Below are positions 8,901 through 33,846 of a stretch of 33,846 bases of DNA, in pieces. Each line of letters starts with the position of its first letter. The first letter of the stretch is position 1. Location: positions 1-33,846 of the IMG/VR virus record IMGVR_UViG_3300048042_000021. One strand, 5' to 3'. The notes below the pieces were generated by a model that worked only from the letters and a program-made list of their open reading frames with translations, had not been told where the DNA came from and did not search any database. Position numbers and translations under genes: made by a program. This DNA comes from a virus.

Positions 8901-9298
8901 TCATATACGGTTTGATTAGTGACAATCTGTTGGATTTTCAAAAATCCAACAGATGTTAAACAACGCTGTGGTTGATAATTTAACATTTGAGCTAGTCTAA
9001 ATACACTTTCACGACGCTGTGCCGTATCTAAGAAATTTTCATGAGTATTCAAATCCATTCTTAGTGCTAAACTGGTACCAACATAACTCAAAAGTTCAAT
9101 GATAGAAACAAATTCACTACTCTCTATCCAGTCGTTAAAATCCTCGGGGTATGAAATCTGTATGTATGTTATTAACGCCGTACGTATAGTATTGAAATCA
9201 TATGCATTAAAATTAACGGTTGTAAATGCAGTATATAGAATTTGCCAATCTTCCGCACAAAAAAGTTGTTTTTGTCTTTGCTGAGCCGTTACAGTCAT
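5918..9298 (-). CDS. Baseplate wedge protein, gp6-like (J-like family)
   Basis: 1126 aa. In T4, gp6 forms the inner ring of the baseplate and joins wedges around the hub. The N-terminal 120 residues carry the family pattern: a region around [15 protein letters not shown], then [20 protein letters not shown] and [19 protein letters not shown], equivalent to the conserved 'LLAY...E.FL.TA..R..V...A...GY' stretch of gp6 and Mu J-like proteins. The length is well above T4 gp6 (660 aa); the extra part is Asn/Thr/Ser-rich. The start ATG at 9298 forms an ATGA overlap with the stop of the upstream GIY-YIG gene, and the GAGGG ribosome site lies in that gene's last codons. Position directly after gp25 and before a giant structural gene agrees with the T4 order 25-6-7. 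Family assignment is by pattern recognition, fairly secure; function of the extra length is unknown. Confidence 0.82.
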
Positions 9299-10203
9299 AT
9301 TATGCCCTCTTTAGTTTTATTTCTTTTAGTTTCTGAAATTTTACGTTTTATTTCATCTGACATAGGAGGTCTCTTTTTGGCTGCAATAGACAATTTTTCT
9401 CTATGTTCATTTGACATATTCATAGCACGTTCTGACATCTTTTTTCGAGTTTCTTCTGTTATTGGATCACGTTTAATAATTATTCCTTGTTCTCGTAAAT
9501 TATCATAAAAATTGCTAGTTGCATCAGATAATTTTTGCCTAGTTTCTCCTGATACTATTTTTCCTTTTAGAGCATTAGATATTTTTTTACGAGATTCTTC
9601 TGATAAAGGATGCTCATTGAATCTTTTTATTTGTGATTCAGACATTTTATTTCTAGACTCTTCAGAGAAGGCCCATCCATTGGCATGTCTGTTCTGTTGA
9701 GCTAAAGTCATTCTTGCTCGAACTTCTGGAGATCGTTTCTGACCTTTTGGTCGACGTAATTGTGCTTCAGAATATCGCTTTCGTGTTTCTTCAGATATGG
9801 GTGGTCGATTTTGTTGTCCTTTAGATATATTTTTTCTATATTCATCTGATCTAGGTGGTCGATTTCTAACAGCTTCGGCGATTCTTCTTTTAGTTTCTTC
9901 GGTATGTTTTAATCCAGTTGCGCCGTCACCACCATCTAATTTGTTTAATAAAATTCCTGCATCACTTCTTTTACCCCACCAACGTATCATTCTTCGTTCT
10001 AATGCTAACGCTCCAATTTCAGTTAAACCTGATTCTAATATAACAATATATTGTTTATCTTTTGGTATAGGAACATTATTATGTTTATCACTGAACATTC
10101 TTTTTCCTTTACCTTTACCAATATAATAAGGAGTACCTGCTTTAGCAGTTATTGAATCTTTATTTCTGATATATGCATATACATAAAATTCATTAATTAT
10201 CAT
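9295..10203 (-). CDS. GIY-YIG homing endonuclease with many NUMOD3-type repeats, inserted in the baseplate operon
   Basis: 302 aa. The GIY-YIG nuclease module is at residues 7-75: YVYAYIRN, then [11 protein letters not shown] (Tyr27, Gly29, Arg35) and a downstream Glu in ALALERRMI. From about residue 95 the protein is a run of about nine short repeats of the type 'S-E-E-T/S-R-K-K-I/M-S', the NUMOD3 DNA-binding pattern of phage homing endonucleases. It lies between gp25 and gp6, genes that are normally neighbours, with 9 nt to the gp25 stop and a 4-nt ATGA overlap with the gp6 start. An AAGG 7 nt before the ATG serves as ribosome site. There is no intron or intein around it, so this is a free-standing element, of the kind T4 calls seg genes. 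Its target is probably the homologous gp25-gp6 junction in related phages; that is inference. Confidence 0.88.
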
Positions 10204-16612: not shown

Positions 16613-16640
16613 TTGACAATACATAGTTTTGTCATATATT
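16613..16640 (+). promoter_or_regulatory. Early (sigma70-type) promoter for gp55
   Basis: TTGACA at 16613-16618, 16-nt spacer, TATATT at 16635-16640. The predicted transcript start is about 30 nt before the chosen ATG at 16677. It diverges from the late promoter at 16572-16579. Confidence 0.72.
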
Positions 16641-16676
16641 ATAGTATTTTGCATGGATTTATCAAAAAGGATCATA

Positions 16677-18512
16677 ATGAACAAAAATTTACCTACTAAA
16701 ATAAAATATTTGACAAATAAAGACTTATTGGAAGAGATTCATTTAAGCAAATCGACTTATTGTGAATTTATTGATCCTAAATACAGTAACTATGATATAA
16801 TAGTTGATAATTTAGGTAAAGTGACACAAGATTTATTAAATGATGTTCGCAAGCGTAAAGTAACACAAGAAACAATACGACGCAAAAAAGAAATGATATC
16901 AAAAGGTATTAAAAATCCAGTAATTAATTTTACATTAGATGATATACCTCAAGAAAATATAGTAATCAGACTAATGACTTTTGACCATATCCCTATTAAT
17001 GAGGAGCGAATTCATAAAGCTAAGACCGAAGCAGAAAAGCATATAAAATGTAATTTTCCTCCTTTTCAACATTTTATAATAAAAGAAGGTGAATTCTATA
17101 TTGTAGGAAAAAGTCATTGGCAAGGCGGTATAGAAAACGGATGGTTTAATATTGAGCACGGAAAAATGACAAATAGATTAGCTCTTATGTTTATGAAATT
17201 AGTAGAAAGATACGGTCATAGAGGGAATTGGAGAGGGTATTGTGTAGATGAAACCACCGAAGCATTAACCCAACGCGGTTGGCTAGGAATTGATGATATA
17301 AACGAGACAGATATTATTTTATCATATGATGAAGGTAATCTGAAATGGTCTAAGATTAAATCTATATTTAGAGATCATTTTGACGGATTAATGCATAATC
17401 TCACTGTTACGGGTATGGATGCATTAATTACACCAAATCATAAATTAGTAACCGGTCGAGGACTTATTGAAGCTGAATATCTATTAGAATCAGATAAAGT
17501 CATTCTGATGGGTAATGAAATTCAGTCAGATTCGATTGAGATATATAATAATGACATTGTAGAATTATTAGGTTGGATAGTAACAGAAGGGTGTTATGAA
17601 TGGAATGAAGAACATAAAATAAAACGAATCACAATATATCAAAATCCGGGAGATAGTGCAGATAGAATCAGAAGCCGTTTAACTAACTTAAATTTTAAAT
17701 TCAGTGAATCACTACGATTGAACAATATATGTTTTGCTATATCACGTCCGGATTCTAGAAAAATTATAGAAATATTACCTACAAAAAACCTAAATATGAA
17801 TTTTCTACTTTCATTAACTGCTAATCAACGAAATATGTTAGTTAACACTATGATAGATGGTGACGGATGGAGAGTAGGTAACTATCGTCGATATACTCAA
17901 AAAAATAAAGAATGTGTAGATATGTTTCAAATTTTATGCACCATGTCTGGTATTAAAACCAATAGCCATTATATACAAAATCATAAATCATTTGGAAAAC
18001 TTACTAGTTACTATAATATTAATTTGTTTTCAAAGAGAAGAAATAATACTAAAGTAGAATGCATAGACTTTCATGGAGGTAAAAGAAATGGTAAAGGTCT
18101 CATTGGACGTGGAAAAATAACTCATCCAAATGAGCCAACTACTTATTACAATGGAATGGTATGGTGTCCTGAAACTGAATATGGGTGTTTCATTGCCAGA
18201 AGAAATGGAAAAGTGTACTTAACTGGAAATACATATCTAGACGAAATGAAAAATCAAGCATTATTACAGCTGAGTCAAATAGGTTTACAATTTGATGAGA
18301 GTAGAAGTGCTCAACCAAATCCATTCTCATATTATACACAAGTATTAGCAAATAGTTTTACAAGAGTATTAAACATAGAAAAGAAAAATCAAAATATTCG
18401 AGATGATTTATTAACTATGCACGGGGCAAACCCATCGTATACAAGGACAACAGACAATGAGATTGCAGCTAAAAAGTTAGCAGATACAGTCGTAAAACCG
18501 CCAGAAGCGTAA
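16677..18512 (+). CDS. 55: Late-transcription sigma factor gp55, interrupted by an intein
   Basis: 611 aa precursor; 281 aa after splicing. gp55 binds host RNA polymerase, replaces the host sigma factor and reads TATAAATA late promoters. The extein reads through the splice joint as GHRGNWRGY|TYLDEMKNQALLQ, then PFSYYTQVLANSFTRVLN and EKKNQNIRDDLL, the sigma region 2 pattern of T4-type gp55. The N-extein (188 aa) is long compared with T4 gp55 (185 aa in all). The ATG at 16677 is chosen because AAAGGA lies 5 nt upstream; the frame is open to a TTG at 16629, but that falls inside the promoter, and the ATG at 16653 has no ribosome site. Downstream come gp47 and gp46, as in T4. No partner gp33 is seen in this window. 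Confidence 0.9.
   Translation: MNKNLPTKIKYLTNKDLLEEIHLSKSTYCEFIDPKYSNYDIIVDNLGKVTQDLLNDVRKRKVTQETIRRKKEMISKGIKNPVINFTLDDIPQENIVIRLMTFDHIPINEERIHKAKTEAEKHIKCNFPPFQHFIIKEGEFYIVGKSHWQGGIENGWFNIEHGKMTNRLALMFMKLVERYGHRGNWRGYCVDETTEALTQRGWLGIDDINETDIILSYDEGNLKWSKIKSIFRDHFDGLMHNLTVTGMDALITPNHKLVTGRGLIEAEYLLESDKVILMGNEIQSDSIEIYNNDIVELLGWIVTEGCYEWNEEHKIKRITIYQNPGDSADRIRSRLTNLNFKFSESLRLNNICFAISRPDSRKIIEILPTKNLNMNFLLSLTANQRNMLVNTMIDGDGWRVGNYRRYTQKNKECVDMFQILCTMSGIKTNSHYIQNHKSFGKLTSYYNINLFSKRRNNTKVECIDFHGGKRNGKGLIGRGKITHPNEPTTYYNGMVWCPETEYGCFIARRNGKVYLTGNTYLDEMKNQALLQLSQIGLQFDESRSAQPNPFSYYTQVLANSFTRVLNIEKKNQNIRDDLLTMHGANPSYTRTTDNEIAAKKLADTVVKPPEA
17241..18230 (+). mobile_element. Intein with LAGLIDADG endonuclease inside gp55
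   Basis: 330 aa in frame, from Cys1 (CVDETTEALTQRGWLGI, block A) to a terminal Asn (NGKVYLTGN) followed by Thr of the extein. Block B is seen as LTVTGMDALITPNHKLVTG, with the TPNH motif. The two LAGLIDADG helices are LLGWIVTEGCYEW and MLVNTMIDGDGWRV, so the homing nuclease looks complete, with an acidic residue in each. The C-terminal block is YGCFIARRNGKVYLTGN; the penultimate residue is Gly rather than His, a variant common in phage inteins. Splicing would join Tyr to Thr in the conserved GY/TYLDEM of sigma region 2. The frame is intact on both sides. Confidence 0.93.
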
Positions 18513-22430: not shown

Positions 22431-23510
22431 TTAAACGGGTTTCAATTTACATTTATCAAAATGATATCTATACATATTATTAGATCCACCAATTTTACCA
22501 CAGTGTGGACATTCTATTTTTGATTTTTTAACACCTTTCATGCCTGCAGACATATTCTTTTTAATTTCATCTGTTACAATTCTACCTTTACCTCCTTTTG
22601 ATATATTATCTTTCCATTGCTGTTTTTCTTCTTCGGTCATTTTATAATGGCATGGTTTACCATACATTCCATTTTCTTCACCTTTGTGGGCCATTTTAGA
22701 TCTAACTATATCCATTTCTTCTTTGGTTAACTTATCAAATGGTTTTTTACCATATCTCGGATTATTCTCACCAGACATACGCAAAGATATTTGTTCTATT
22801 AACTCTTTATATTCTTCTGACGTTAAATTATCAAATGGTTTTTTACCATATCTCGGAGATAGGTTTCCGATTCTTCCGTACATAGGATTATTTTCTCCTC
22901 TAAAATAGTCATCTAAATATTGCTGATATTCTTCTGGTGTTTTATTTCGTATAGTCGAATTATTATTACCAAATCGATATTTTATTTTATATTGTTCTTT
23001 TTCTTCGGGTGTCATACCATGTTCCCAACAAAAATTTTCATTCGGGTATATGTCTTTTATTAATGCAAATATTCTAACTGCTTCTTCGTCTATAGTCTCA
23101 TGTGGCGGTAAAAATTTAATTGGTGGTATTACCTTATTATAATATTTTCTAATCGAATCAGATAATTTAACTCGTAATGCATCTTCTACTATTAATTTTT
23201 CAACTTCTGCATAGGTTAGAGATGCCTTAGTAGCATGTAATGATTCAATAAAAAATTGAAATCTATCTTTTCCAAATTCTTTAATAAGTTTGTTTATTTC
23301 ATCTGATGAACTTGTGTATTTTTTCCAGTTAGATTCTTTCGTCTTCCATGCTCTATTTTTTCTTCCAGTAATAGCTTTACTAGTTTTTGTAAAAAATTGT
23401 TTTTTACCTATATATTCCCTATTAGTAACCGTGTCAATTATCCTATATACAAATCCAAACCAATTATTTATATTAAAATCGTTAGGGTATATCCAATGAC
23501 CATTATCCAT
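22431..23510 (-). CDS. GIY-YIG homing endonuclease with C-terminal zinc finger
   Basis: 359 aa. The nuclease module is at the N-terminus: FGFVYRIID (18-26) and REYIGKKQFF (31-40). The middle holds three copies of a 'G-E-N-N/G-P/G-x-Y-G-K-K-P-F-D-x-L-T-x-E-E' repeat, a NUMOD3-type DNA-binding pattern. The C-terminus is a zinc finger with Cys334, Cys337, His350 and Cys354 (spacing C-x2-C-x12-H-x3-C), the same spacing as in the HNH protein at 29116-29967. The gene is convergent with gp46, 6 nt apart. It has its own late promoter (23541-23548) and an AGGAATTATT ribosome site, so it should be expressed late. It is free-standing; the target is unknown. Confidence 0.88.
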   Translation of the reverse strand: MDNGHWIYPNDFNINNWFGFVYRIIDTVTNREYIGKKQFFTKTSKAITGRKNRAWKTKESNWKKYTSSSDEINKLIKEFGKDRFQFFIESLHATKASLTYAEVEKLIVEDALRVKLSDSIRKYYNKVIPPIKFLPPHETIDEEAVRIFALIKDIYPNENFCWEHGMTPEEKEQYKIKYRFGNNNSTIRNKTPEEYQQYLDDYFRGENNPMYGRIGNLSPRYGKKPFDNLTSEEYKELIEQISLRMSGENNPRYGKKPFDKLTKEEMDIVRSKMAHKGEENGMYGKPCHYKMTEEEKQQWKDNISKGGKGRIVTDEIKKNMSAGMKGVKKSKIECPHCGKIGGSNNMYRYHFDKCKLKPV

Positions 23511-23591: not shown

Positions 23592-23620
23592 TTGACATTG
23601 TCTATACTAATATGTATATT
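23592..23620 (+). promoter_or_regulatory. Strong sigma70-type promoter
   Basis: TTGACA (23592-23597), 17-nt spacer, TATATT (23615-23620). The predicted start is near 23627, followed by AAGGA at 23634-23638 and the ATG at 23646. Confidence 0.8.
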
Positions 23621-23645
23621 TTATATAGATATAAAGGATGTTGTT

Positions 23646-24449
23646 ATGGTATATAAGAACGAACAGCAAAATAATAGACAAAACTCAGAGAGAACTTACA
23701 ATATCTCACTTGGAGATATTACCAAAAGAAATCTCATCTCTTTTATGGTAGAAGAATTGAACTACTATAACACTCTTGTAGTAGGGTTTAATAGCAAAAT
23801 CAGAGTATTATATAACGAAATTGAAGCTATTAGAGATAATTATGAACGAGTTTGGTTAGCCGTTGCACAAACCGGAATTGATCTTCGAGAACTAGCAAAA
23901 ACACCAATTGATACTTGGCCAGATACATTTGTCCCATATGCAGAACTTATAGTTAAAGGTAATAGACTTATTATAAGTGAACGCATGATGATGCTATTTG
24001 ATCTATCCGCAACGAAAGCTAAATTTCATCCACTTATGCGTAGATTAATTGCTGCAGAAGTTTTACATTGGGTTCAACCACAAGCTAAACAAATTGCAGA
24101 GTCTGACTTAAGCACAACCGGACAAATGAGAGCTCCTATTCAAATGCTCCAGCCGCACGAATATATTTTCAAGCGCCATATCCAATTAATTAATGGTATC
24201 GTTGAAATGACATATGATGCCGAAAATGGTTCTACAGTACTTAAAATACCATATTCAAATGAGCCTATTTTAATAGAAGGTCATGATTTGACAAAGATGC
24301 GTCATGATCATTTTATTATTAGACAAAAAGTTGGTGAAGTTCCAAATCCAGATACGCCATGGCAAGTTACAGTTAAAGAAGGTTCGAGTAAGTATATGTT
24401 GGAAATTACCGATATGTCATATAGTAGTCGAAAAAAAATTAGACATTAA
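23646..24449 (+). CDS. Conserved-looking protein of unknown function, first gene of a two-gene operon
   Basis: 267 aa from the ATG at 23646, chosen because AAGGA lies 7 nt upstream; the frame is open further to a TTG at 23592, but that is the promoter -35. I do not recognise the family. The first 20 residues are polar and Gln/Asn-rich. Residues about 22-150 look all-helical, with LISFMVEELNYYNTLVVGFN and AIRDNYERVWLAVAQTG. Residues about 160-260 look beta-rich and end in WQVTVKEGSSKYMLEITDM. There is no signal peptide, membrane segment, cysteine cluster or known catalytic motif. It is transcribed from a strong early-type promoter with the 97-aa gene, and a hairpin-rich non-coding stretch follows on the same strand. 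An alpha-helical then beta layout could suit nucleic-acid binding, but that is only a guess. Confidence 0.8.
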   Translation: MVYKNEQQNNRQNSERTYNISLGDITKRNLISFMVEELNYYNTLVVGFNSKIRVLYNEIEAIRDNYERVWLAVAQTGIDLRELAKTPIDTWPDTFVPYAELIVKGNRLIISERMMMLFDLSATKAKFHPLMRRLIAAEVLHWVQPQAKQIAESDLSTTGQMRAPIQMLQPHEYIFKRHIQLINGIVEMTYDAENGSTVLKIPYSNEPILIEGHDLTKMRHDHFIIRQKVGEVPNPDTPWQVTVKEGSSKYMLEITDMSYSSRKKIRH

Positions 24450-24467
24450 TTTAAAGGTAAATATTAT

Positions 24468-24761
24468 ATGACTCAAGTAAGAAAAACATTTCCACAAGAA
24501 GCTATTCCAACTGTAACTAAGTCAACACCAAGAACTGGTAAATCATCATTTCAGTCTAGAAAAATTCCTGAATTTCATCAAGGTACCCCTGCCTCAAAAT
24601 GTGTGTCTTTAAAAGATAAATTTGACAAATACATTACAGAACATCATAGTAATTTAACAGAAGACGATCGAAAGCTATTGTGGCAACGAACGTCAGCTCA
24701 ACTAATAGAAAATCCCCAAACTGAATTCATCACCATCATCGAAGAAATCATCCAATTTTAA
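24468..24761 (+). CDS. Small hypothetical protein
   Basis: 97 aa, not recognised. The first 45 residues are basic and rich in Ser, Thr, Pro and Lys and probably disordered; the rest, from KDKFDKYITEHH on, forms predicted helices with NLTEDDRKLLWQRTSAQLIE. No cysteine pair or membrane segment. It starts 18 nt after the 267-aa gene, with AAAGG 10 nt before the ATG, so it belongs to the same operon. The 13-mer AAAGGTAAATATT in its leader recurs upstream of the gene at 31154. A short basic, partly disordered protein next to a structured RNA region may bind nucleic acid, which is inference only. Confidence 0.7.
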   Translation: MTQVRKTFPQEAIPTVTKSTPRTGKSSFQSRKIPEFHQGTPASKCVSLKDKFDKYITEHHSNLTEDDRKLLWQRTSAQLIENPQTEFITIIEEIIQF

Positions 24762-24764
24762 TTC

Positions 24765-24814
24765 CTTACAGAAACCATCATCATCCCTTACAGAAACCAT
24801 CATCATCCCTTACA
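24765..24814 (+). repeat. Tandem 22-bp repeat just after the operon
   Basis: Two perfect 22-bp copies (24765-24786 and 24787-24808), each beginning CTTACAGAAACC and ending in CATCATCATCC, plus six bases of a third. The unit is not a multiple of three and lies after the stop codon. Confidence 0.9.
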
Positions 24815-25186
24815 TACTGGTACTGAAATAGTAGTAGCGAATGCGTAATTCTACTGATGCTAGGATTGATAAGATCACACTCATCTAGGGATTCTAATTC
24901 TGTAAAGCCCTAACCAGAAAAATCAGATGAAAGGATTGCAGCATCTTGTATATTGTCTGCAATGCATAGGATCTAGTAATCGAAATGTAGACCTATGTAG
25001 TGTGCCCGTAATGGGCATGACCGGGTATAGAGGTTAATTTCTAAAAGATCGCTTGTGACGAGTGGGTATTTAGGGACTCTGAATACGCCACCTGATAACT
25101 GGAAAAAGGTACCCCGCCAGTTAGTTTTAGGGTGATAATTTCGATGGCTAAAGAGTGAATCAGAAGATTACACATTTTCCAATAAA

Positions 25187-25214
25187 ATAGTATTTCCTTA
25201 AACGGGAATACTAT
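25187..25214. other. 11-bp hairpin, possible terminator for leftward transcripts
   Basis: Stem ATAGTATTTCC (25187-25197) with GGGAATACTAT (25204-25214), loop TTAAAC, one T-G pair on the plus strand. On the minus strand the stem is followed by TTTTATT, so it could end leftward transcripts about 340 nt beyond the tape measure stop. Confidence 0.4.
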
Positions 25215-25282
25215 GACGAGATATGATCAGAATATCACGCCTTTTATAGACGATTTCTGCTACATAAAGATTGAAAACGTAT

Positions 25283-25327
25283 TTAACGTAAATTTATTTA
25301 GAAAATTAACGTAAAGTTATTTAGAAA
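25283..25327 (+). repeat. Direct repeat, two 22-bp copies
   Basis: Copies at 25283-25304 and 25306-25327, separated by one base, share TTAACGTAAA and TTATTTAGAAA and differ at a single base (T or G at the eleventh position). Confidence 0.9.
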
Positions 25328-25334
25328 GAAAATA

Positions 25335-25385
25335 ACAAAGCAATTCATTGAGATGAGCTTGCGATTCGAAAATGAATTGCTTTGT
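25335..25385. repeat. 15-bp perfect inverted repeat (hairpin)
   Basis: ACAAAGCAATTCATT (25335-25349) and AATGAATTGCTTTGT (25371-25385) are exact reverse complements, loop 21 nt. No T-run follows on either strand, so it is not a standard terminator. Confidence 0.9.
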
Positions 25386-25391
25386 AGATGA

Positions 25392-25423
25392 ACATAAACG
25401 GAGTTTATGTTCTCCGTTTATGT
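25392..25423. repeat. 12-bp hairpin with an alternative fold
   Basis: ACATAAACGGAG (25392-25403) pairs with CTCCGTTTATGT (25412-25423). The first arm can instead pair its ACATAAA with TTTATGT at 25404-25410, a 7-bp hairpin with loop CGGAG. The two folds exclude each other. Confidence 0.85.
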
Positions 25424-25553
25424 ATAATCATAATAATAAATTAAGGATACTTCTGACTAAAATTCATTGACTATATTAGGGTTAATCAACTATGCGTCGA
25501 TGGCAGTTTGATAATTGCAAACAAAAACTAAATATTATCTGCGAATAAATTGA

Positions 25554-28500
25554 TTAATAAACACGTCCACTCTGCTTCTTCACTGCATTGACTATATCAC
25601 TTGTAGAACTATTTGTAGTATGACCTAGAGCTTCGAGCTTATAATTTATCATCTGAAGTAATTCTATCATTGACGCATTTGAACTTCTTTGATTATCATA
25701 AAAATCAATTGTTATCTTTTGTAAGTCACTTGGACTCAACAGCTTAGCACCGCCTTTATTAGTTGCAACTGACGGGTTAGCTAGTTCTTGCGCATTTGCA
25801 GCTAAATCTCCCACACTTTTAGCTAGTTCTTCAATCATTGACGATGTGGTAATTTTTCCAGAAAATAAAGTGTCTTGTTTAGAAGTATATAATAAATTTG
25901 ATAGATTGGTTAAGGTATCATTTACTGACGCATCTATTTTGGCTGAGTTCAATGAACTAATCGCACTATTAAATGCAGTACTAAAAGTAGACAATGATGG
26001 CGTTATTTGATTTAATTTATCAGCTATATTAACTGACCCTAAACTATCACCTAATTCTGTAATTTTACTCGCGATAGTCGTTTTACCACTAAACATCCCA
26101 GTCTTAATATCAGTGTATAAAATACCAGCTAAGTTTGTGATTGTTTTAATAATTGCATCGGTATTGATATTAGCACTATTAGCACTTATTAATGAATCCG
26201 TAACAGTTTTAAATGCAGTACTAAACATTGTTAATGCTGGGGTTACTTTAGTTAACGGATCAGTAAGGGTTTCGAATTTTTTAAGTTGATTAACTGAATC
26301 ATCACCCTCTACCTTAGGAGTCTCTACATTTGGTTTTGGTGGTTGTTGACGTTGTTCGTCCTCAGGTGAGGTTTCGCCCAATAAACCACCAAGACCTTTG
26401 ACCATCTTACCTATTGCTGTATGTTCACGGAAATTGTGTACTGCACCTAATACAGCATCAGGTAAGATCTTATTGCCAACAGCACTGATTCCTTCACCTA
26501 TAAATTTGCCTGCTATGACAGCTAATCCTGCTTCTCCAGCAACCTTAGCAACTGTTCCGAGGCCGCCAACCTTGCTAAGCAATCCACCTGCTTTACTTGC
26601 TACACTTGCGGCTTTCTTTTCAGCTTCTGCTATTGCTTTACTTGCTGCTTTCTTTTCAGCTTCTGCTATTGCTTTACTTGCTGCTTTCTTTTCGGCTGCA
26701 CCTTCGACACCTGGCATACTGAAAGGTCTTGGAGATTCTGGACTGCTAAATGGGTTTAGAGAACCTGTAGACTTAATTGGCCTTGACGTTGATTGTGTAT
26801 CTTTTAAAAAGTCTTTAATCCCTTGTGGACGCAATCCCTTAAGAACCACACCACCAGTTAATTTATTTGCTACTGCTAATACTGCGGTTGATACTATTGC
26901 GGTTGTAGCAACTGATTTTAAATTTTCTTGAGTTAGGTTAGATTCTGATCCTGTTTTACCATACATTGCATCTGGATCTTGTTTACGAGTTTTTAAACCA
27001 AATGATATAAGTAACTCATCTATAGCATCTCCTAATGTAGTAAACAAATTAGCCAATGAATCAATTGGATGCGCAAGAGTTGTTAGTATATCTGAGAAAG
27101 CAACTGATACCTTAATAGCACCGTCTGCTAATTTTCCAAGAGCAGGTAGTGCAGGATTTAAGCTCTCTATTAAAAATCGATCAAATGAATTTTTTAAAGT
27201 ATTCTCTGCATCTATAGCTTTGTTTTGTGTATTTCGTAATTTAATAGCATCTTCATTTGCATCAGATGCCATTTTTGCACGTTCTCTTGCTTCAAGTTGC
27301 TCTCTAGTTAATCGTTTACCAGCTTCTTCATCACCTCTAGCAAGTCGTTTATTAACTTCTTCTTGAATTCTAGCTCCCGTTTCGTTTACATTCTGGGTAT
27401 CTTGCATAAATTTTATAGCTTTTCTAGCGGCATCACCAGCTATACCTTGTATCATCGCTTGCGAATGTAAACTTGCTGCGTATTCTTTAGCTTGTGGTGA
27501 ATTAGTTAGTTTACCTATACGTTCTTGATCAGCTTCAACTAGATCTGCAGCGTTAGCAGCGTTAGATTTCAAATCTATTGACAATTGGTCAAATGCCGGA
27601 GACAACCCATCTACACGAGTCATTAACAGTTGAAGACCACTATCTAATTTAGCTATGCCTGTACCCGCATATATACCAGTGAGAATTTTTTGTGCGTCGT
27701 CGGCAGAATCACCTAATGCACTTAAACTCTTTACATTCCGCCTAATAGCATCTTGCTCATTGGCAGATAAATTAGATATGGCTACGTTCATATCTAAATC
27801 CTTAGCTCTATCTTTTGCCTCCTTTTCTAAAGTTTTTCTATTTTTTCCAGTAATCGAAGATATCATATTCAATTCTTGAATATATTGTGCGGTGCCATCG
27901 GTTAGTTGTTTAGTAGTTTTACCTGATAGACCACCAGTTACCCTTAACATATCTGTAAATTCAAGTATAGAATCAATTGCATCCTGATTGGTTAATTGGA
28001 GAGCCCCGGTCTGTTCGTTTAATAATTTAAATGATTTACCTAGTCTGGTAACTTTATCAGTTCCTAAAAACGCTATATCTGCGCTATACTCTGTAAAAGA
28101 AGATACTAAATTATCCAATGATATTCCGAGGTCAGATGCTGTTTGCGTCATTCCTGCCAGACCATCAGAGAACCGAACACCTGAATCAAATAGTTTATAA
28201 TATTCGTTATTCAATTTCGTGACAATTTGATATGTTTCAAATACCCCGCCTGCTAATAACAATAACGGACCTGCTACGGTAAGTATACCTCCTAATAGAT
28301 CTTCAGATGCTGCACCTAATTTAGATAAACTGGCGGCCGCCGTACCTGAATGTTTAGCTAACATTCCAATTATACCAACGTCTCCGATATCTGATATTGC
28401 GCCATGAAGGCCTTTTAATGCACCACGTAAACTACCGTCTACTTTATCGAATCCATTTTTTACACCGAGGTTTAAGTCTTTAAATGCATCAGTATCGTTT

Positions 28501-28706
28501 TTACGTTTCTTTTTGTTTTGTTTAGCTTCGTCAAGAGCAATATCTAATTCTTTTTTTGCAAACTTGTTTGTTAATAATTTAAGATAATCATTTGCTTCTG
28601 TATCTTTTTCGAGAATTTCTTTGAGCGTAGTTTCCCTAGCCCATTTAGCTCCGGTGCTTTGCTCTTCTAGAATTATAACTTTTTGTGGTGGTACAACTGC
28701 TGCCAT
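25554..28706 (-). CDS. Tail tape measure protein
   Basis: 1050 aa. It sets tail length and is ejected ahead of the DNA. Evidence is the composition and layout: a charged helical N-terminus (KDTEANDYLKLLTNKFAKK), then a hydrophobic Gly/Ala/Leu-rich segment at about 140-165 (LLGGILTVAGPLLLLAGG), long helical stretches rich in Ala, Lys and Asp, an Ala/Glu/Lys tandem repeat, more hydrophobic Gly/Ala segments around 720-740, and a C-terminus of Ser/Thr/Ala repeats. It follows the gp26-like/frameshift pair, the standard position of tail chaperones. By the usual rule of about 0.15 nm per residue the tail would be near 150 nm. The start at 28706 lies 30 nt after a CATAAATA late promoter. No lysozyme or peptidase domain was recognised. 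Confidence 0.85.
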   Translation of the reverse strand: MAAVVPPQKVIILEEQSTGAKWARETTLKEILEKDTEANDYLKLLTNKFAKKELDIALDEAKQNKKKRKNDTDAFKDLNLGVKNGFDKVDGSLRGALKGLHGAISDIGDVGIIGMLAKHSGTAAASLSKLGAASEDLLGGILTVAGPLLLLAGGVFETYQIVTKLNNEYYKLFDSGVRFSDGLAGMTQTASDLGISLDNLVSSFTEYSADIAFLGTDKVTRLGKSFKLLNEQTGALQLTNQDAIDSILEFTDMLRVTGGLSGKTTKQLTDGTAQYIQELNMISSITGKNRKTLEKEAKDRAKDLDMNVAISNLSANEQDAIRRNVKSLSALGDSADDAQKILTGIYAGTGIAKLDSGLQLLMTRVDGLSPAFDQLSIDLKSNAANAADLVEADQERIGKLTNSPQAKEYAASLHSQAMIQGIAGDAARKAIKFMQDTQNVNETGARIQEEVNKRLARGDEEAGKRLTREQLEARERAKMASDANEDAIKLRNTQNKAIDAENTLKNSFDRFLIESLNPALPALGKLADGAIKVSVAFSDILTTLAHPIDSLANLFTTLGDAIDELLISFGLKTRKQDPDAMYGKTGSESNLTQENLKSVATTAIVSTAVLAVANKLTGGVVLKGLRPQGIKDFLKDTQSTSRPIKSTGSLNPFSSPESPRPFSMPGVEGAAEKKAASKAIAEAEKKAASKAIAEAEKKAASVASKAGGLLSKVGGLGTVAKVAGEAGLAVIAGKFIGEGISAVGNKILPDAVLGAVHNFREHTAIGKMVKGLGGLLGETSPEDEQRQQPPKPNVETPKVEGDDSVNQLKKFETLTDPLTKVTPALTMFSTAFKTVTDSLISANSANINTDAIIKTITNLAGILYTDIKTGMFSGKTTIASKITELGDSLGSVNIADKLNQITPSLSTFSTAFNSAISSLNSAKIDASVNDTLTNLSNLLYTSKQDTLFSGKITTSSMIEELAKSVGDLAANAQELANPSVATNKGGAKLLSPSDLQKITIDFYDNQRSSNASMIELLQMINYKLEALGHTTNSSTSDIVNAVKKQSGRVY
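26611..26697 (-). repeat. 36-bp in-frame tandem repeat in the tape measure gene
   Basis: Two exact 36-bp copies (26611-26646, 26647-26682) and a 15-bp partial third that differs at one base. They encode 12-residue units of the type EAEKKAASKAIA. Confidence 0.92.
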
Positions 28707-29115: not shown

Positions 29116-29967
29116 TTAGTGATTAATTTCTTCACAAACAATGTTTGATTTTTGTTTGAATTTACAATTATCAAAATGCCATTGGATCATAGCACCACCT
29201 TTACCAATTTTATCACAATGATGACATACATATTCTTGTTGAGATGGGTGTGTTCCATTTGCTACTCGTTCTAATGCGTGTTTTCTAGCTCTTTCAGAGC
29301 CACCATTTTCTTTTAATAAATGATGCGTTCTATTTGCAACTTTCTCATTTGCTAATTGCCTTAGATGCTCAATGTTTTCTTTATTTTGAGATGAATGCCT
29401 ACCTTCTGCTAATAGCTTTAAATTTCTTTCTTTAGACTTCTCACTACCTCCATTTTGTTTTAATGCATGAAATGTACCATTTTTTATTAATTCATGTACC
29501 GGATTTTTATCACCTTGTAAATTATGATCACCTCTAGCAACTCTTTTATTTTGTGCTTGTATCATTTTTTCAATAACTACCGGATTTTGAGATGGATGTC
29601 TACCTTCTGCTAGTAATTTTAATACTCTTTCTCTAGACTTCTCACTGCCACCATTTTGTTTTAATAAGTTATGAGTTCCGTCTGTTGATCTTTTTAAATT
29701 ACTCAATGTTGCTAATCTAGAAATATCTTCTGGTGATTTATTCATTCTAAATGCAATTAAGACGCATGCATACCAATCCATTTGTTCAAAATGAATATCG
29801 TAATGTTCTTGTATAGTAATAGCTTCTAAATTAATTGGATCATTATTTGAATGATTCCCATCTATGTGATGAATTTCATAAGTACGACCTGTTTCATCTA
29901 TAGGTATTTTACCTATATGATTCTCATATATTTTACGATGATTAGTAGTTCTACAATGATTGCACAT
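29116..29967 (-). CDS. HNH homing endonuclease with repeats and C-terminal zinc finger
   Basis: 283 aa. The HNH core is at 30-60: RTYEIHHIDGNHSNN (His33, His34, Asn41/42), DPINLEAIT and EHYDIHF, preceded by a CNHC pair at 2-5. Residues about 95-245 hold three copies of a repeat built around NGGSEKSRERVLKLLAEGR and HPSQN, interspersed with RVARGDHNLQ-like units, likely DNA-binding. The C-terminal zinc finger has Cys248, Cys251, His264, Cys268 with the same spacing as the GIY-YIG protein at 22431-23510. It lies between the tail-chaperone frames and the tape measure gene, normally adjacent. No ribosome site precedes the ATG, and the predicted transcript start is within a base of it, so translation may be leaderless. 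It ends 4 nt from the convergent membrane-protein gene. Confidence 0.87.
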   Translation of the reverse strand: MCNHCRTTNHRKIYENHIGKIPIDETGRTYEIHHIDGNHSNNDPINLEAITIQEHYDIHFEQMDWYACVLIAFRMNKSPEDISRLATLSNLKRSTDGTHNLLKQNGGSEKSRERVLKLLAEGRHPSQNPVVIEKMIQAQNKRVARGDHNLQGDKNPVHELIKNGTFHALKQNGGSEKSKERNLKLLAEGRHSSQNKENIEHLRQLANEKVANRTHHLLKENGGSERARKHALERVANGTHPSQQEYVCHHCDKIGKGGAMIQWHFDNCKFKQKSNIVCEEINH

Positions 29968-32534: not shown

Positions 32535-33846
32535 TTATACAATTTGATTAGGATTTGTCCATATCCATCTGGCATTGCCACAATCCCATATACGTTCAAA
32601 TCCGGCATTTCGCGCCATCTCATATTCAGTTAAATTTGGATCTAATGCCGGATATTTTTTCAAAAGTTCTTTCTTAGTAAAAAATAATCTATGATACCTT
32701 TTAAATTCTGGATTACATAAACTAAAATACCAATATCCGGCACCAGTATCTTCATATCTAATAAATCCTAAATTAGCAAGATAATTACCTTCACCATATC
32801 TTAAATCTGAATAACTTAAAATACTAATAGGATCAAGGTCTTTTACAAATTTTGAAAATAGTTTACTTGCTATTCCTGGTATATGTGTTAAATCTGTAGA
32901 AAACCTTACCATTTCCCATTCATATTCTATTAGAGGTTTATGTAATTTTCTATGCTTACTAAAACTCATAACTGCCCGTATGTTTTCATTTTTATCAAAT
33001 GCAGCATAATGTATTGAAGCTCTTGCTGATCCACCTAGATGATATTTTTTCAAAAATTCATCAGATGTCATCTGCGTTATTTTTTTAATTACTAATGATC
33101 TGGCACCAACAGATACAGATTGTTTTTTTAACATATGTAACAATCTAGATTCTACAATTTTACGATTTAGTATCCATTCATCTTCAAATATAGATATTAA
33201 TTTTATATTTTGTTCTTTACATTCTATCCATTTATTTCTATGATCAGTAGATTTTGAATACCTCTCACTATGCCAATATAACCCACAATATTCTATACCT
33301 ATTTGTAATGATGGTGAGTATAAATCTAATTCTTTACCACTAGGTAATACTTTTCTAGTTTTAGAAAAGTCATTGAATCCATGTAATGCTAATAAATTAG
33401 CAAGTTGTTTTTCTGGTATTATTTCTGTAGGTAATCGTATACCTAAAATTTTTAAATGTTTTAACACGGTAGTTTCTGATACATTTAATTTAGTAGATAT
33501 TTCTGAAACTGACAATGTATCAAATAATGATTTCATAGAATCATAATCAGTTAAATATCTCCATGTTTCTACACTATAATGTAATTGACTATGATTTGAC
33601 ACACCATATATAGCAAAAGAAGATGCTATCATTTTGCTACGAACGTCTTGGCGTTTACTATGCCAATCTACACCATACTTTATTAAACATTGATTTCTTA
33701 TAGAGTCAATAACTTTAGGATCTTTCATGCTATTATTAATAGTCATATTAAGTTTATGACTTTTAATCTGCCCAGGATTAGTAACATCAATGCCATGCTT
33801 TTCTTGTAGTTTATTTTTTGCTTTTAATAAAGTTTCAGGGTTGGCT
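32535..33846 (-). CDS. Hef-like homing endonuclease, VSR/PD-(D/E)XK type (5' end outside window)
   Basis: The frame is open from 32535 to the right edge. The first ATG inside is at 33746 (403 aa), but about 33 further codons upstream continue the same kind of sequence, so the true start is probably outside. The N-terminal part consists of short modules of the type KYGVDWHSKRQ, IYGVSNHSQ and, before the first ATG, KHGIDVTNPGQ, a repeat common in phage homing nucleases. A helix-turn-helix (SVSEISTKLNVSETTVLKHLK) follows. The nuclease core is GKELDLYSPSLQIGIEYCG, LYWHSE and ISIFEDEW. The C-terminal half (YHLGGSARASIHYAAFD to the end) is the domain found in this family of 'Hef-like' phage proteins. 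Flanking genes are unknown. Confidence 0.82.
   Translation of the reverse strand, partial: ANPETLLKAKNKLQEKHGIDVTNPGQIKSHKLNMTINNSMKDPKVIDSIRNQCLIKYGVDWHSKRQDVRSKMIASSFAIYGVSNHSQLHYSVETWRYLTDYDSMKSLFDTLSVSEISTKLNVSETTVLKHLKILGIRLPTEIIPEKQLANLLALHGFNDFSKTRKVLPSGKELDLYSPSLQIGIEYCGLYWHSERYSKSTDHRNKWIECKEQNIKLISIFEDEWILNRKIVESRLLHMLKKQSVSVGARSLVIKKITQMTSDEFLKKYHLGGSARASIHYAAFDKNENIRAVMSFSKHRKLHKPLIEYEWEMVRFSTDLTHIPGIASKLFSKFVKDLDPISILSYSDLRYGEGNYLANLGFIRYEDTGAGYWYFSLCNPEFKRYHRLFFTKKELLKKYPALDPNLTEYEMARNAGFERIWDCGNARWIWTNPNQIV

Follow-up and report, generated by a model that had tools for sequence, protein, structure and literature searches.

The 33,846-base record IMGVR_UViG_3300048042_000021 from IMG/VR (the window) belongs to a T4-like jumbo phage, as indicated by its SbcC, SbcD, late sigma factor, baseplate hub/lysozyme and gp6-like genes. 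Between positions 23592 and 25423, two open reading frames (ORFs) and a large structured RNA follow one another on the plus strand. A sigma-70/early-type promoter, TTGACA-17-TATATT (23592-23620), agrees with the consensus at 11 of 12 positions and precedes ORF1 (267 amino acids (aa); ATG at 23646, stop codon ending at 24449), which has AAAGGA upstream of its start. ORF2 (24468-24761) encodes a basic protein of 97 aa with a net charge of +2 and an isoelectric point (pI) of 8.8. A 22-nucleotide (nt) tandem repeat in two copies (24762-24806) occupies the gap between ORF2 and the RNA. The conserved core of the RNA, located at approximately 24813-25236 by alignments A1, A4, A5 and A6, covariation and the match of a held-out model, is about 430 nt long in the window, and the structured stretch overall is about 600 nt. 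An earlier note, made from the letters of the window, had described a near-consensus early promoter, both ORFs and a structured stretch on one strand with no visible terminator ahead of the latter, and this layout was confirmed. No terminator-like site was found on the plus strand at 23592-25440, the sole one in the scanned region being at 26900. When the 150 nt upstream of ORF1 were shuffled 2000 times with dinucleotides preserved, an equally good promoter arose 20 times, and a TTGACA/TTGACT-type site is also present upstream of ORF1 in the related loci L033, L041, L046, L072 and L078.

The folding energy of 24762-25440 corresponded to a z score of -4.0 on the plus strand and -5.2 on the minus strand. 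Because the minus strand folds well too, folding energy alone cannot assign the strand. The reality of the RNA and its strand were assigned from the relatives, through helices that covary, loops that are conserved and a model that matches the plus strand only. When the most conserved stretch, CTGGAAWWAGGNNNYCCGCCAG, was employed as a query, 36 loci were found in viral contigs, and a search with a second pattern contributed L049. Counting L072, which was found via ORF1, the distinct RNA sequences number 21; L020, L045 and L048 were excluded because the remainder of the structure is missing, and L034, a 2,260-base locus, duplicates L014. The covariance model R1, trained without the window, matched the window at 25039-25142 with an E-value of 9e-5 in 509,517 bases from 43 sources. 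The bit scores were 30.1 for the window, 29.7 for its near-identical relative L003 and 42-113 for the other copies. L029 folds weakly (z -2.8, RNA strand). The locus is constant, lying between the SbcC and baseplate-hub genes of environmental jumbo T4-like phages, on contigs of up to 518,643 bases. The RNA is thus a real, conserved structured RNA of a new phage class. On a 309,756-base contig the hub-locus copy is accompanied by a different, diverged second copy at L014:1873-2244, flanked by ORFs of 122 and 375 aa.

Helices P1 (AGTAG ... CTACT, 24830-24855), P2 (GATG ... CATC with an inner GAT ... ATC, 24856-24885) and P3 (TAGGG ... CCCTA, 24886-24912) were taken from the covariation alignment, as was hairpin P11 (TAGTATTTCC ... 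GGGAATACTA, 25188-25213); P1 is only 80% paired and P11 only 73%, in both cases partly a matter of alignment register. P4 (ATTGCAG ... CTGCAAT, 24935-24963) has double changes at all five of five pairs in 13 sequences. The loop of P5 (CATAGG/TCTA ... TAGA/CCTATG, 24965-24997) holds the 5' strand of a pseudoknot, PK2. P6 (TGCCC ... GGGCA, 25003-25021), seen in the core alignment, is followed by a conserved ATRACCG. P8 (CACCT ... AGGGTG, 25089-25133), identified by covariation and the R1 match, encloses P9 (CTGGAAAAAGGTACCCCGCCAG, 25099-25120), the most conserved stretch. Hairpin P10 is missing from the window. Two further hairpins lie at the 3' end, one at 25335-25385 with 15-base-pair (bp) arms (25335-25349/25371-25385) and one at 25392-25423 with 12-bp arms (25392-25403/25412-25423). 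Both are present in most hub-locus copies and absent from L072, L014 and L017.

Covariation was evaluated separately for the P6-P10 core (23 pairs, 11 sequences without the window) and for P1-P4 with P11 (38 pairs, 13 sequences). The core was 93.1% paired compared to 81.2% when shuffled, with 14 double-change pairs against 7.4 and a covariation of 0.402 against 0.184, and none of 500 shuffles was as high. For the other helices the corresponding values were 86.6% and 78.1%, with 19 double-change pairs against 12.1 (0/500). In both sets none of the 500 shuffles and no slid control reached as many double changes. A measure of further pair types (control a) was not above the shuffles, at 118/500 for the core and 495/500 for the other helices. 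The core model alignment, A6, omits the window and L003 together with four divergent copies (L014, L017, L025 and L029), because the long P7 insert of the window caused misalignment; A4 omits L014, L017, L019, L024, L025, L029 and L034. Four weak matches held in A9 (L017 3392, L038 8527, L020 and L045; E 0.2-0.3) were not used.

In PK2 the loop of P5 pairs with the strand immediately 3' of P8, in the window through 8 bp between ATCGAAAT (24979-24986) and ATTTCGAT (25138-25145); none of the 3' regions of 16 other sequences pairs as well. The same geometry is achieved with unrelated letters over 9 bp in L004, 10 in L072, 9 in L017 and 7 in L043. A test with RNAduplex, in which 46 of 20,000 permutations did equally well, did not keep individual stems apart, and single-helix scoring was used instead. 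In a permutation test of 17 of the 21 distinct copies, the helix scores summed to 285 compared to a permuted mean of 248.8 (37 of 100,000 permutations), and a 12-sequence subset gave 431 of 100,000. For the best helix in L013, L018, L024, L033, L041 and L029, 11-15 of 16 other partners score as well. The clades without ORF1 (L013, L016, L018, L024 and L029) have a weak PK2; since it is weak in L033 and L041 too, no link between PK2 and ORF1 is claimed.

The possibility was considered that the RNA belongs to a known family. Rfam 15 at its gathering thresholds gave no match for the window and 16 loci (L004-L008 and 11 further), and at permissive E-values the RNA stretches of the window, L005 and L049 returned only chance matches to single hairpins of the miRNA, CRISPR-repeat or snoRNA type. 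When four copies of the core were compared by blastn with 50,697 phage records, nothing or chance pieces of 23-44 nt were obtained, and the best E-value of R1 in five whole phage records (Phosso, Atu_ph07, PA5oct, XaC1 and ICP1) was 0.55, in ICP1, which is not significant. An occurrence in host genomes was likewise rejected; a 22-nt motif of the RNA matched 20 GTDB contigs, about the estimated chance level, and these are without the rest of the structure and reach at most 20.6 bits with R1, compared to the score of the window. Gene-free stretches are present between SbcC and the hub in the cultured phages PA5oct (663 bases, L008:11871-12533), XaC1 (792 bases, L051:11633-12424) and Phosso (1014 bases, L006:15408-16421). 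These gaps fold with z scores of -7.6, -4.1 and -4.1, respectively, on the plus strand and -6.7, 0.1 and -4.9 on the minus strand. As judged by eye, a hairpin resembling P11 and a long 3' hairpin are present in them, and they are possibly distant relatives of the RNA.

Homologues of ORF1 are 53-55% identical in L004 and L005 and 25-31% identical in seven others. An AlphaFold2 model of ORF1 built from ten homologues (25-55% identity) had a predicted local distance difference test (pLDDT) score of 82.5 and consisted of one strand, helices at residues 24-155 and a beta-rich half at 178-244, as the earlier note had anticipated in describing a helical first and a beta-rich second half. The structure prediction and fold search proposed there for the 267-aa protein led to TnpB/Cas12/Fanzor-type proteins in two predictions. 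With the first model, rows 1-29 of the Foldseek output were Cas12 or TnpB (best E 4e-4), and the first unrelated row had an E-value of 0.69. VIA-align gave Z scores of 10.8 for CnCas12f1 (167 residues aligned, 5.0 Å), 10.2 for AsCas12f (162 aligned, 3.5 Å, chain residues 1-209) and 9.9 for TnpB (170 aligned, 4.3 Å, residues 1-174). When the prediction was repeated with nine homologues, leaving out the window, L004 and L005, it gave the same fold with a best Z of 10.1; this second alignment shares seven of its nine members with the first. Foldseek was weaker on the second model (best E 4.9e-3, no row below 1e-3, first unrelated row at 0.16), and in each of the two predictions all 50 of 50 VIA-align rows were TnpB, Cas12, Fanzor or TranC. 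The best matches in a viral structure library were proteins of 280 and 269 aa without known function (E 4.7e-16 and 7.6e-11), followed mostly by TnpB/Fanzor-type transposases.

In TnpB the WED domain comprises residues 1-12 and 117-176, the first strand is followed by the inserted REC domain (13-116), and RuvC begins at residue 185 (PMC10097598). Because the structural match ends at TnpB residue 174, ORF1 is predicted from the models to be the REC lobe (WED and REC) of the TnpB/Cas12f fold alone, without RuvC. ORF1 ends where WED ends, and no RuvC, OrfB or zinc-ribbon Pfam match was found in ten ORF1 homologues. A retron was rejected as well, as no reverse transcriptase was matched among 9 window proteins with Pfam or 17 with PHROGs. 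A KRH.Q motif is invariant at the WED start of the homologues, and eight of nine have a pI of 9.2-9.5. ORF1 gave nothing significant in PADLOC, Pfam or PHROGs, and tblastn searches with four of its members did not find it in the 50,697 phage records.

ORF2 has a conserved FFPK/FPQEA start and a helical C-terminal F..LW motif in an 11-member alignment (A8). It matched no known family in Pfam, PHROGs or PADLOC, and tblastn with one member did not find it in the same phage records. The protein is probably a second, optional, RNA-binding protein.

The association of the three elements was determined upstream of the 21 distinct RNAs: both ORFs were present in nine, ORF1 only in four, ORF2 only in five and neither in three. 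In 13 of 21 copies ORF1 lies upstream of the RNA on the same strand, either immediately or with ORF2 in between. Most loci were found via the RNA, and therefore only a count that starts from ORF1 is free of this bias. In such a search (10 loci), the RNA follows in seven of eight decidable loci; the contigs of L073 and L079 end too early to decide, and L071 and L076 correspond to the contigs of L049 and L036. An additional observation in the approximately 300 nt upstream of the RNA is a motif, [AT]GGC[TA]C, counted 27 times compared to 5.9 expected in 16 loci. The loci with the motif are L004, L013, L021, L033, L041, L043, L046 and L049, and the motif is also found within small hairpins between ORF1 and ORF2.

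The SbcC of the window has its nearest cultured relatives, at 44-46%, in Phosso, PA5oct-type phages and Atu_ph07. The contig of L003 stops within the RNA; its ORF1 differs from that of the window by one silent change and R219H, its ORF2 is identical, and its RNA has several single-base differences and one copy fewer of the 22-nt tandem repeat. L004 and L005 were reached via SbcC (71 and 74%). Their order is SbcC, a resolvase-like gene, ORF1, ORF2, about 600 gene-free nt, a 75-aa gene and the baseplate hub, the last two on the minus strand. The window matches this order only partly, since its RNA is separated from the 75-aa gene by a 1050-aa ORF and an HNH gene. The 1050-aa ORF (25554-28706) has no relative in phages or viral contigs and only weak Pfam matches. 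A SegE-like GIY-YIG endonuclease (22431-23510) occupies the position of the RusA-like resolvase of L004 and L005, and three further homing/HNH endonuclease genes (9298-10203, 29116-29967 and 32535-33746) make the window rich in homing elements. The late sigma factor (16629-18509) has 627 aa and contains a weak LAGLIDADG match, whereas those of Atu_ph07 and PA5oct have about 280 aa; the gene in the window carries a probable intein. SbcC is uninterrupted in the window. In L003 (5690-7170; L002:1600-3200) an apparent split intein, accompanied by an endonuclease in an ORF of its own, breaks SbcC at the Walker A motif, and the SbcC of L049 also has an intein-like insertion.

Among known systems, TnpB with its OMEGA RNA (ISDra2 TnpB-omegaRNA) and Cas12f resemble the locus most directly in the REC lobe predicted for ORF1, a WED barrel with the helical REC after strand 1, and in a structured RNA with a pseudoknot after the gene on the same strand. 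They differ in that ORF1 has neither RuvC, the domain of the D-E-D triad, nor the TNB/zinc ribbon. Moreover, the RNA is about four times longer than the 116-nt TnpB scaffold, has no recognised guide, can occur without the protein and is found here only in phages. Phages are described as using cutting-dead TnpB proteins, TldRs, as RNA-guided repressors (PMC13418256). These are likewise phage-carried, nuclease-inactive TnpB-type proteins beside an RNA, but in the source the TldR nuclease domain is inactivated and the phages are temperate, whereas in these T4-like jumbo phages RuvC is absent outright. The IscB/IsrB omega-RNAs share the idea of a big RNA standing in for protein parts (PMC10097598), with REC missing and RuvC kept, the reverse of ORF1. 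GOLLD and ROOL are phage RNAs that are likewise large and have many helices and pseudoknots. The RNA has no Rfam match to either and keeps a fixed position between SbcC and the hub. No description of this RNA or of a RuvC-less WED-REC protein was found in the open-access literature.

The explanation that we favor, tentatively and at somewhat below an even chance, is an RNA class able to stand alone that in many phages is bound by a nuclease-less protein of the TnpB/Cas12 type, which would act through binding and do no cutting. The locus would make a large, stable folded RNA with a long-range pseudoknot, and the early gene upstream would supply a TnpB/Cas12f relative that keeps the REC lobe, with its grip on RNA and DNA. 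In the TnpB structure the omega-RNA scaffold and pseudoknot are gripped by WED and RuvC (PMC10097598), and because WED holds the scaffold there, ORF1 most likely binds the adjacent RNA. Lacking RuvC, the complex could not cut; its action may consist in binding a target nucleic acid, or in stabilising and placing the RNA. As some phages keep the RNA without ORF1, the RNA would also work alone or with another partner. The identity of the partner, the target and the time of action of such a complex are points that we infer.

Several observations weigh against this interpretation. A sequence link between ORF1 and TnpB was absent from a PDB profile search, Pfam and hhalign (probability 0.07%), and single-chain template modelling scores are low (0.2-0.4, at identities of 3-13%), so that the kinship rests on predicted structure. 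The ORF1 of the window has a net charge of only +1 and a pI of 7.9. In L043, L072, L073, L078 and L079 a perfect hairpin closes ORF1 before ORF2 or the next gene, so that ORF1 may be transcribed separately from the RNA in those loci. Eight of the 21 RNA copies are without an adjacent ORF1, and the 518,643-base contig of L016 has the RNA and ORF2 with no ORF1 anywhere. Conversely, the 54,785-base contig of L078 has ORF1, the hairpin and the 75-aa gene, with neither ORF2 nor the RNA. Synteny alone could hold ORF1 and the RNA together. An obligate pair is not supported, as the two are separable both ways. The expectation that gene and RNA always occur together was therefore not borne out, and the protein gene without the RNA, the observation by which the earlier note had proposed to judge its idea, was seen once, in L078. 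Of the OMEGA-like ribonucleoprotein suggested there, the conserved RNA and the predicted TnpB/Cas12f REC-lobe fold were retained and the fixed protein-RNA unit was not.

A serious alternative, which we consider plausible though well short of even, is that the RNA acts by itself in the manner of GOLLD and ROOL, abundant and perhaps self-assembling, and that ORF1 and ORF2 are unrelated early genes in a stable neighbourhood. The copies without ORF1, and the three without either ORF, are what it would lead one to expect, as are the second copy at L014, in another context on a contig that also holds a hub copy, and the large structured gap without ORF1 at the same place in PA5oct, XaC1 and Phosso. 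ROOL and GOLLD are themselves presented as phage RNAs without known protein partners (PMC12286853). Yet the neighbour in most copies is predicted to have the fold of a guide-RNA-binding lobe, an unlikely coincidence, and no tRNA is nearby (the window has zero tRNA genes). GOLLD and ROOL often lie near tRNA genes. The RNA could instead be a cis-acting 3' leader or terminator, controlling the stability of the ORF1/ORF2 mRNA or blocking the convergent baseplate-hub transcript. Its location between convergent units and its closing hairpins beside the stop codon of the 75-aa gene would suit such a role, which is nevertheless improbable: the RNA is far bigger and more constrained than a terminator and has a long-range pseudoknot, the L014 copy has no convergent hub operon, and the copy in L029 has its own promoter-like site (TTGACA-18-TATTGT) with neither ORF upstream.

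ORF1 might also be a regulator that aims its REC lobe at other RNAs, such as the TnpB or CRISPR guides of hosts or rivals, as a decoy or inhibitor unrelated to the adjacent RNA. The contig of L078 (L101), the one contig with ORF1 but no RNA, does carry a full-length TnpB gene (a 436-aa frame); since TnpB was present in only one of the 13 contigs searched and no defence family was matched, little probability is attached to this role. Finally, the pair may form a new RNA-guided architecture in which the giant RNA replaces the missing lobe and, with the REC lobe, makes up a particle that can be programmed to bind DNA or RNA and that regulates genes of the host or the phage. The sequence 3' of a conserved CAGAAT varies freely between RNA copies, and a guide possibly lies in this variable stretch. 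We regard the guided particle as rather unlikely. No RNA match of at least 13 nt to the locus flanks exceeded chance in 17 loci, and this lack of a self-target counts against the favored interpretation as well.

If ORF1 and the RNA do form a ribonucleoprotein, it would contain a TnpB/Cas12-type protein of which only the half that grips RNA is left, a mirror image of IsrB, and would reveal what that half does alone. In phage ICP1 a non-coding RNA of about 800 nt is more abundant than any other transcript (PMC7567579), and therefore such RNAs can dominate infection. Even without a protein partner, a conserved RNA of 400-600 nt with a covarying pseudoknot, not in Rfam, joins the few large phage RNAs, and the structured gap at the same place in the cultured phages PA5oct, XaC1 and Phosso makes the question testable at the bench.

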